Translations under genes and position numbers: made by a program
Notes under the pieces: generated by a model
The model's database searches: none
What the model was told of the DNA's origin: nothing
The model's input: only the letters and a program-made list of their open reading frames with translations
In this document: piece by piece, positions 34,089-42,802 of the stretch
Position numbering within the stretch: position 1 is the stretch's first letter
How the letters are laid out: every line of letters begins with the position of its first letter
Assembly (NCBI GenBank): GCA_001001345.1
Contig: LCKI01000001.1
Location: forward strand, 64,339 to 121,408
Length of the DNA stretch: 57,070 bases
Direction: 5' to 3'
DNA from: Parcubacteria group bacterium GW2011_GWC1_45_14
GTDB taxonomy: Bacteria; Patescibacteriota; Minisyncoccia; Moranbacterales; GWC2-37-73

Positions 34089-34643
34089 ATGGCAGTTAAA
34101 AAAGAAGCGAAAAAAGCCCCGGCCAAGAAAGCCCCAGCCAAGAAAGCTGCGGCCAAGAAGGCCGCTCCGAAAAAAGCCGAAGCGAAAGTTGAGGTTAAGG
34201 CGGAGGTAAAAGAAGTGAAAGCGAAAGTTGAGAAGAAAATCTCAGCCAAATACTTTTACGGTGTCGGAAGAAGGAAGACCTCGGTCGCCCAAGTCAGGCT
34301 TTATGAGAATGACAAGGCTACTGACGCTGACTTGGTCATCAATGACAAGGAAATGAAAGATTATTTCCCGACTTTGGCCCAGCAGAACGTGATGACCGCT
34401 CCTCTTAAAGGGATCGGAATGCACGGAAAATTCACCATGACGGCTCTCGTCAAAGGAGGAGGGATGACCGGACAGGTGGAGGCTGTACAATTGGGAATAT
34501 CTAGGGCTTTGGTCGCATTCGACGAATCCCTTAAGAAATCCCTTCGGGATAACGGATTCCTTACTCGCGACGCGAGAAAGGTGGAAAGAAAGAAACCTGG
34601 ACTCAAAAAAGCAAGACGCGCCCCACAATGGGCAAAAAGATAA
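34089..34643 (+). CDS. rpsI: 30S ribosomal protein S9 with Ala/Lys/Pro-rich N-terminal tail
   Basis: KYFYGVGRRKTSVAQVRLYEND...; KKPGLKKARRAPQWAKR. Confidence 0.95.
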   Translation: MAVKKEAKKAPAKKAPAKKAAAKKAAPKKAEAKVEVKAEVKEVKAKVEKKISAKYFYGVGRRKTSVAQVRLYENDKATDADLVINDKEMKDYFPTLAQQNVMTAPLKGIGMHGKFTMTALVKGGGMTGQVEAVQLGISRALVAFDESLKKSLRDNGFLTRDARKVERKKPGLKKARRAPQWAKR

Positions 34644-34680
34644 AAACGCTTCGGCGTTTTTTCTTTTTGGCTATTGTGGA
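34622..34680 (+). terminator. rpsI: rpsI terminator inside a longer hairpin
   Basis: ccacaat...attgtgg outer stem; aaaaacgc-ttcg-gcgttttttctttttgg. Confidence 0.85.
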
Positions 34681-34687
34681 TTGGAAA

Positions 34688-34761
34688 GGGGTCGGGAAAA
34701 CGAAAGTTTTCCTGGGGTGGAAGTATTGAAACCGCAAGGTTTCAAGGAGCAAAGCGACCCC
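34688..34761 (+). ncRNA. Candidate structured RNA: three-way junction with GAAA and GCAA tetraloops
   Basis: P1 ggggtcg/cgacccc (34688-34694/34755-34761), P2 ggaaaac-gaaa-gttttcc (34695-34712), P3 ttgaaacc-gcaa-ggtttcaa (34726-34745). Confidence 0.5.
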
Positions 34762-34770
34762 TCATTGGGC

Positions 34771-34807
34771 AAAAAGATAAAAACGCTTCGGCGTTTTTAT
34801 CTTTTTT
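34771..34807 (+). terminator. Perfect 16-bp UUCG-capped terminator after the candidate RNA
   Basis: aaaaagataaaaacgc-ttcg-gcgtttttatcttttt. Confidence 0.9.
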
Positions 34808-34941: not shown

Positions 34942-35475
34942 ATGTCGACAGCACAGATATTCAACTGCATATTGGGAGAATGGATCAGGGAAATAACCCA
35001 ACTGATCAATGAAGTGAAAGCAGGACGCGTTGAAGCCCAAACCAAGGTCGTGGAGTGGATGAAGTTCTTCATGATTCTCTCCCGGGAAATCAAGAATCAT
35101 CCATTCGACAAGAAGACGGCGGGAAATATGCAGGATATTGTCGATGAATTGAAAGGCGACAACTTCTTTTTTCTCGAGGGCAGGGAACATTTCATCGAGA
35201 GGATAGGTGACGTTGTCCATCTGTTGGAAGTCGGCGATTGGGTTTGGGCGAGATGTGACGGCCACCTTCAGGAACTTCTCGGCAGGGTGGAGGACGTCGA
35301 TCACGAGCATCTCCAAGCACTGGTCCTATTCATGGAGGAGGATTTCCCGGGGAACAGGGGATTACAGAGCCCCAATGCTTGCGTTTTATTCCCTGATATT
35401 CTCAGGATCGAGAATGATTCCGGGGTGATAGGCACAAAGTCTTGGGTGATGGAGCAATACAAGCAAGTCGTCTAA
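34942..35475 (+). CDS. Hypothetical protein
   Basis: 177-aa ORF, ggaaaggag SD upstream of ATG. Confidence 0.75.
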   Translation: MSTAQIFNCILGEWIREITQLINEVKAGRVEAQTKVVEWMKFFMILSREIKNHPFDKKTAGNMQDIVDELKGDNFFFLEGREHFIERIGDVVHLLEVGDWVWARCDGHLQELLGRVEDVDHEHLQALVLFMEEDFPGNRGLQSPNACVLFPDILRIENDSGVIGTKSWVMEQYKQVV

Positions 35476-36706: not shown

Positions 36707-36983
36707 TCCCGAAAGATTTTTCGGTTCAGCAGCTTTGGCCAGCGTTGGCGTTGGCGAGTATCTCTTTGACGAGTTGAATATTCACAGGATTCCCTTCGAA
36801 GACCCCTATGGCCATCACAGCTTCAGGGAGGGGATTGTTGATTTCAATAAGAAAAGTGAAAGCAATTATTTGGTATTCTTTAAAAGATGCCAATAACGGA
36901 TTAGCCGCGAGTAGAAGCAGTTTTTTGTTTTGTTTGTGAAAGCGCGATACAATACGGATATGAAAAAGATAACTTTCGAAAGC

Positions 36984-37226
36984 ATGTACTATCTTTATAT
37001 CCTTGAATGTTCCGATGGGAGTTTGTATACGGGAATCGCTGTCGATGTGGAAAAAAGGCTCGCGGAGCACAACGACTCAAGAAGGGGCGCGAAGTATACG
37101 AAAGCCAGAAGGCCGGTGAAATTGGTGTTTTCAAAAAAATTCAAAAACAGGTCCGCCGCTTCCAAGGAGGAGGCTCGGATCAAGAATTTGTCCCGGAAAG
37201 AGAAATTGGAACTTATAAAAGCTTGA
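36984..37226 (+). CDS. GIY-YIG nuclease superfamily protein
   Basis: MYYLYILECSDGSLYTGIAVDVEKRLAEHN. Confidence 0.92.
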   Translation: MYYLYILECSDGSLYTGIAVDVEKRLAEHNDSRRGAKYTKARRPVKLVFSKKFKNRSAASKEEARIKNLSRKEKLELIKA

Positions 37227-42729: not shown

Positions 42730-42802
42730 GGGCGCATAGCTCAGTTGGTAGAGCAACGGCCTTTTAAGCCGATGGTCGGGGGTTCGAATCCCTCTGCGCC
42801 CA
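42730..42802 (+). tRNA. tRNA-Lys (anticodon TTT)
   Basis: GGGCGCATAGCTCAGTTGGTAGAGCAACGGCCTTTTAAGCCGATGGTCGGGGGTTCGAATCCCTCTGCGCCCA cloverleaf; 3' CCA not encoded. Confidence 0.97.

Follow-up and report, generated by a model that had tools for sequence, protein, structure and literature searches.

A hitherto unnamed family of minute mobile DNA units at conserved gene ends in ultra-small bacteria

The stretch of DNA analysed here (57,070 nucleotides of Parcubacteria group bacterium GW2011_GWC1_45_14, contig LCKI01000001.1, positions 64,339 to 121,408; hereafter the window) carries, in the region 34621–34807, a member of a hitherto unnamed family of minute mobile DNA units found in ultra-small bacteria of the candidate phyla radiation (CPR). 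The unit is located between two parts, L and R, of the end of a conserved gene, here rpsI; its layout is R-spacer-guide-core-L′, and it measures approximately 110–190 bp when empty of cargo. The comparison of empty and filled sites in relatives establishes that it is an insertion, and the target stays functional through the gene end carried by the unit, which is very probably a mobile integrative unit. With moderate confidence, the best explanation as a whole is that of a gene-poor integrative unit directed by its guide or its fold and moved by a recombinase supplied in trans.

The evidence for insertion comes from two loci. Within one genus, the tRNA-Leu locus is empty in relatives G016 and G018 (GTTCGAGTCTCCCCCAAGGCACATGCAG) and filled in G010, G007 and G012, where the insert is flanked by GTCTCCCCCAAGGCACA, a 17-nt repeat. 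The rpsI site is empty in 11 of 18 relatives and, within a single genus (g7), empty in G010 and G014 and filled in G007, G012 and G018. In the filled rpsI sites of this genus, the native codons continue from the right copy, as does the native rpsI terminator in G007 and G018, and the upstream copy (GTGGGCAAAAAGATAG) is common to carriers and part of the unit. At pgk (locus L164; PGK by Pfam), the differences between the two copies are numerous and read as synonymous. These comparisons at rpsI and pgk indicate that the unit supplies a gene end of its own and pushes the native one to the right. A plain target-site duplication was dropped, as the copies at both genes are different sequences, the native one lying on the right. 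An empty site, a flanking direct repeat and a restored target, as known from site-specific integrative elements, are thus all found at tRNA-Leu and rpsI. Over 80 copies of the unit at tRNAs, the upstream 3′ end pairs better in 12, the right one in one, and both pair equally in 67, which argues that the better-kept upstream copy is the working gene end.

At the window locus, the target gene rpsI (ribosomal protein S9) is an open reading frame (ORF) on the forward strand (34089–34643; PF00380 match at G000:C1:98604-98978), whose last codons (PQWAKR stop) fall inside a repeated block: 34621–34668 and 34758–34805 form a direct repeat of 48 nt with 90% identity, the right copy lying 137 nt downstream. 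The upstream copy (34621–34668) opens with L (CCCCACAA, 34621–34628) and continues with the unit-borne gene end, R_U, which corresponds, on the basis of the empty and filled rpsI sites in 18 genomes, to the last rpsI codons and the terminator. It is followed, on the same strand, by the guide region (34669–34682; complementarity statistics over 104 copies), by the conserved core E of approximately 75 nt (34683–34757; a covariance-model match in all copies, with E = 4e-27 for the window copy) and by the right end (34758–34807), in which L′ (CCCCTCAT), a mismatched imitation of L, precedes the right copy of the rpsI end and terminator. The core contains helix P2 (34693–34714; 9 bp in the family register, with a variable tetraloop), helix P3 (34726–34745; 8 bp, with a conserved apical CC-G...-GG) and a tail, GGAGCAAAGCGA (34746–34757), of which the GC..GC part grows into a variable hairpin, P4, in other copies (L028, L060, L034 and L074; read by inspection).

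The original prediction, made from the letters of the window, had described this stretch as a compact three-way-junction RNA, and its elements are where it had put them: P1 (GGGGTCG/CGACCCC, 34688–34694 with 34755–34761), P2 (GGAAAAC-GAAA-GTTTTCC, 34695–34712 in that register), P3 (TTGAAACC-GCAA-GGTTTCAA, 34726–34745) and, 9 nt past the 3′ strand of P1, a perfect 16-bp UUCG-capped inverted repeat (34771–34806). The three-way junction equals the minimum-energy fold of 34683–34765 (−32.0 kcal/mol versus −20.3 kcal/mol for shuffles; z = −3.9), equalled by none of 200 shuffles. That the element is a real, conserved structured one is borne out by homologues with compensatory base changes. Among 82 distinct copies, 97.7% of the cells in P2 and P3 are paired, and 13 of 17 pairs are changed on both sides (7 of 9 in P2, 6 of 8 in P3), values reached in none of 500 shuffles; when the structures are slid along the alignment, pairing falls to 21–71%. 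Building this alignment with the model introduces a bias toward the fold, yet the covariation effect is well above what a model-made alignment would be expected to give. Mismatches within P2 and P3 on the given strand are G.T in 25 cases versus A.C in 7, an excess that fits the given strand being the folding one. The core is also conserved in sequence, its unpaired purine-rich strands included. As for P1, the predicted closing helix is present in the window, but its full 7 bp are peculiar to this copy: only three to four inner pairs are kept in 115 of 126 copies, and the helix is completely Watson–Crick here because its 3′ strand, CGA|CCCC, is completed by the rpsI-derived CCCC. The search of Rfam suggested with the prediction returned no family above the gathering threshold for the folded stretch, the weak matches (E up to 10) being to unrelated families; over the whole window, it gave only a tRNA at 42730. 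Hepatitis delta virus-like and hammerhead folds, compared by eye, do not fit.

A covarying, conserved fold followed by a terminator is also what a stand-alone non-coding RNA, or a riboswitch-like leader of the ORF at 34942, would offer, and this was the function originally proposed. However, in other genomes the core adjoins tRNAs, rpsI, rplK, pgk, rpoD, fusA and others, so that one core has many unrelated genes beside it, and the genes downstream of it are likewise unrelated between genomes; the UUCG terminator belongs to a near copy of the rpsI end and rpsI terminator; and P1 is not conserved. This function retains next to no probability.

The extent of the family was assessed by two routes. 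A covariance model (R1) built from five own-genome copies and restricted to P2 and P3, a search that the original prediction had recommended, found 8 copies in the 0.89-Mb genome itself and further ones among its relatives (54 of 113) and in a sample drawn across the phylum (31 of 380 genomes, strict filters); a DNA search within this genome also turned up places that match the fold but lack the terminator. In addition, an exact 19-mer scan of 84,980 species genomes yielded at least 113 stretches, and the titles, among the matches listed, are all CPR/Patescibacteria or unnamed bins; the carriers comprise Moran-, Taylor-, Kaiser-, Jorgensen-, Colwell-, Harrison-, Ryan-, Wolfe- and Berkelbacteria, and Kazan. 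In total, 155 distinct copies were read, all from Patescibacteria; as they were collected with an own-genome model and one exact 19-mer, divergent members are under-sampled in this set, in which many contigs are from draft bins. The core was absent from phage and plasmid collections searched by BLAST and from a viral collection searched by 19-mer scan, and no description of the unit family was found in the open-access PubMed Central (PMC) literature.

Most copies lie just downstream of the end of a tRNA gene, with a repeat of the 3′ portion of that tRNA, starting at the T-loop, directly to the right of the core. A tRNA with a copied 3′ end accounts for 80 of the 155 copies, spread over 18 isotypes (the own-genome copies that adjoin tRNAs show the same repeat to the right), and the rpsI 3′ end for 13; 11 copies lie just before or between tRNAs, 15 have an upstream tRNA without a recognised copy, and 36 fall in the remaining class, ‘other’. 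The other targets include the ends of RpoD, EF-G (fusA), LepA-type GTPase (lepA), PGK (pgk) and L11 (rplK), as well as those of DinB-type polymerase, MurD, DnaX and an fn3 protein; the core is antisense to the gene at fusA, lepA and dnaX, and this is the orientation at EF-G and other gene starts. Thus, of the mobile repeat family scattered at random that had been raised as a contrary outcome, the mobility is found and the randomness is not, as the sites are conserved gene ends. The repeat R measures 15–81 nt by local alignment over 104 copies (median 23), and up to 93 nt at L136 under a looser alignment. At the right junctions of units (GTGAGAT or GTTCGAT at tRNAs, CTCCTCA at rpsI, CGCGTC at fusA), L′ is altered relative to L, with GTGA for GTTC at tRNAs and CTCCTCA for CTCCACA at rpsI.

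Some sites have features of their own. Cores lie directly before or between tRNA genes, with neither guide nor repeat, at L020, L027, L032, L036, L055, L058, L059, L063, L070 and L080; many copies so placed end with CGAC at the tRNA 5′ end, and they are a separate class. At L074 (G006:C3), a tRNA-Asp gene with a 63-nt intron in its anticodon region (ARAGORN) precedes a unit. At L089, a spacer and guide follow the right copy itself, with no core after them, which would fit either the loss of a second unit's core or a guide already in place before insertion.

Within single genomes, cores at different targets are 93–100% identical (L067/L068, L139/L157, L073/L074 and others): those of L068, at rpsI, and L067, at the fn3-protein gene, share 98% identity, and those of L139 and L157 are identical (100%). 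Such near-identity indicates that the core moves to new targets, with flanks that follow the target. At rpsI, units are found in tandem in G001, G012 and L144, the native end being distal. Two units carry cargo genes between target and guide: that of L130 (1.4 kb) with a SUKH-family ORF and that of L150 (3.3 kb) with GIY-YIG, PsbP-like (PsbP_2) and NYN ORFs. The first is a two-gene unit between tRNA-Gly and the core (L130:1802-3008; Ca. Pacebacteria, CALHMM010000010.1), in which the SUKH_5/SMI1-KNR4 ORF is accompanied by a membrane-anchored ORF without Pfam match. On the minus strand of this contig, at offsets 4742, 5568 and 6284, a hairpin-like AGTTCTAACGTCAT..ACT.TCTGGCTCA recurs, twice after ORFs of the unit, and a similar motif, CAGTTCTAAC, lies upstream of the orphan core L026; this hairpin motif is possibly another repeated site. 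Beside the cargo unit of L150 (Harrisonbacteria), a tRNA is apparently split by a group I intron (L150:2025-2540; agagactagatacc...atgatatagtcc) with an ORF at 2025–2339 that resembles an HNH homing endonuclease; ARAGORN detects no tRNA at L150:2025-2540.

Directly 5′ of the core, the guide reverse-complements L|R, the target junction at its own locus: in the window, ATTGTGG (34673–34679) matches the junction CCACAAT (34623–34629). Over 104 copies, mean guide complementarity is 11.5 with the own target, 6.9 with the targets of other loci and 5.5 for shuffled guides, and scores of at least 8 are reached in 84, 31 and 6% of cases, respectively; the longest complementarity extends over 24 nt (L125). 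Of the two junctions, the upstream one, L|R, is the better match to the guide in 88 copies and the right one, L′|R, in 3, with 13 ties, because L′ is altered.

A guide in the order 5′-rc(R)rc(L)-3′ (rc, reverse complement), complementary to joined L and R, recalls the internal guide sequence of group I introns, and the unit could accordingly be read as a small intron-like ribozyme, with L and R as ligated exons and splicing as the step that restores the tRNA or rpsI. The long hairpin formed by gene end and guide, together with the right copies of rpsI, which often retain the WAKR-stop with synonymous changes, agrees with such a ribozyme. However, the upstream copy already works without splicing and has been preserved better than the right one (12 to 1); the element is antisense to fusA, lepA and similar genes; the core lacks P3-P9, is far below the size of known self-splicing introns and has no Rfam intron match; and several carriers are without reverse transcriptase (RT). 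Splicing was dropped as the leading account on the decay of the right copy and the antisense insertions at fusA, lepA and dnaX, and an intron-like ribozyme appears very improbable.

In the mechanism that we consider instead, site recognition would fall to the core E together with the guide, either as RNA or in the form of a folded single strand. The conserved site would be selected by the guide, which complements L|R of the target and does not complement the L′|R junction of the unit itself, and a recombinase supplied in trans would recombine L′|R_U and L|R in the way that attP and attB recombine. A host Xer-like tyrosine recombinase is the first candidate because this is the only recombinase type in nearly all examined carriers: PF00589 is present in 56 of 57 relatives, mostly as one or two genes. 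The identification of the acting enzyme as Xer-type is tentative, and rather doubtful at that; a part for the guide or the fold in target choice is somewhat favoured. That the units constitute a new class of guided element, in which a constant RNA or single-stranded DNA core and a guide of 10–24 nt direct one trans recombinase to many gene ends, is possible rather than probable.

Several findings weigh against a guided mechanism of this kind. Guide:target mismatches are G.T in 20 cases and A.C in 20, and this equality gives no sign of the guide pairing as RNA; the guide could then be a by-product of the insertion reaction. The 11 copies before or between tRNAs have no guide or repeat, and the orphan core L026 has no target within 18 kb. 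No partner enzyme tracking the element was found among the families searched; the E-rich genome G009 has one Xer-type recombinase, no RT and no Y1; and IS110, the recombinase of the nearest guided analogue, was rejected as a partner, with PF01548 above the cut-off in 5 of 57 genomes and not in G000, G001, G009 or G012. Tandem G.A mismatches of RNA-like appearance in some guide:target pairs were set aside, the overall 1:1 ratio of G.T to A.C giving no support for RNA-tuned pairing.

Other candidate partners were also rejected. The distribution of extra tyrosine recombinases and of GIY-YIG nucleases (the latter found in 54 of 57 relatives, frequently as several genes in one genome) does not match that of the element; RT is absent from several carriers; and the Y1 transposase (PF01797) is absent from carriers G000, G002, G009, G011 and G056, which also separates the unit from IS200/IS605 or repetitive extragenic palindromic (REP)-type elements. 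A small GIY-YIG nuclease ORF is present in the window at 36930–37226. No autonomous version was found within 18 kb of orphan core L026. A 790-aa ORF with a reverse-transcriptase domain (L254:12971-15343; G003:C13) lies approximately 3.5 kb from an orphan core at that locus, to which it is probably unrelated, several carriers being without RT.

The units could also be ordinary satellites of an integrase-bearing element, with attP/attB recombination on the R block, and guide and core serving as arm-binding or packaging region. The R block of 15–93 nt, the displaced native end and targets typical of integrases (tRNAs, rpsI, GTPase genes) would fit, and tRNA-targeted elements (integrative and conjugative or mobilizable elements, tycheposons, prophages) likewise insert at conserved gene ends, restore the gene with an element-borne copy and displace the native end. 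However, the unit differs from these in its size (approximately 130 bp), its lack of an integrase and its inverted, target-matching guide; dozens of unrelated targets share one core, whereas integrases are usually specific to one; no helper element was seen in the phage, plasmid and viral collections; and the target-specific inverted guide is left unexplained. A satellite origin therefore seems improbable.

The main rival is a folded single-strand recombination site, in the manner of integron attC or CTX-phage attP, in which a tyrosine recombinase would join a guide-core-L′R hairpin to a double-stranded target, the unit being an integron-like cassette and L|R the analogue of attI. attC sites are flanked by the consensus boxes R″ RYYYAAC and R′ GTTRRRY. 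Integron cassettes are, like the unit, non-autonomous, end in a folded site and depend on a recombinase in trans; the polarity of the units, their tandem arrays with the new unit beside L (as in the rpsI tandems), the occasional cargo genes in front of the core and the conservation of structure while flank sequence varies are all in line with this. The L′-guide mismatch beside the junction also recalls the extrahelical bases of attC folded single-strand sites (PMC2727003). In contrast to cassettes, the guide matches L|R_U and not its own L′|R (88 to 3), whereas in attC, R″ pairs with its own R′; the core sequence and unpaired purine-rich strands are conserved, unlike those of attC; the attC consensus boxes are missing, with no GTTRRRY box at all in the rpsI, rpoD and fusA sites; the target is the end of an essential gene, and the units are mostly gene-free. 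No integron integrase was identified, PF00589 having been counted in total with no search for the IntI-specific domain. Such a site is, on balance, unlikely, if less so than a satellite. A related comparison is with Xer-using vibriophages (PMC5357621): integrative mobile elements exploiting Xer (IMEX; XerC/XerD users, e.g. CTX phage) also lack a recombinase of their own, and share with the unit a possible use of host Xer and, for CTX, a folded attP, but the targets of the unit are many (tRNAs, rpsI and other gene ends) and not dif; no dif-like arms were noticed in the unit, with no formal dif search made. The nearest guided analogue of the proposed mechanism is bridge-RNA-guided recombination, whose enzyme is missing here (PMC11208160). 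IS110 elements share with the unit a structured non-coding segment with target-matching sequence; however, the unit, like most carrier genomes, is without an IS110 recombinase, its guide is single, contiguous and directed to one strand, and no second (donor) guide loop was identified in it.

Site-specific insertion with target restoration is already known behaviour; what fits no known family among those tested is that a constant, covarying core and a target-complementary guide occur together in a unit without a gene. Few mobile elements have been described from Patescibacteria, whose genomes are small. The present family is among the smallest definable integrative units, mostly without any protein gene and entering essential genes without breaking them, and it accounts for the partial copies of tRNAs and of the rpsI tail in CPR genomes, which are perhaps otherwise misannotated. 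Should the guide be no more than a by-product, the fact that it forms reproducibly from the target would still reveal an insertion chemistry undescribed for known elements. If it is functional, the units would be a naturally retargetable insertion system with many natural guide-target pairs: a single core and a single enzyme would suffice for tRNAs, ribosomal protein genes and other essential genes, with the guide and the matching restored end determining the target.
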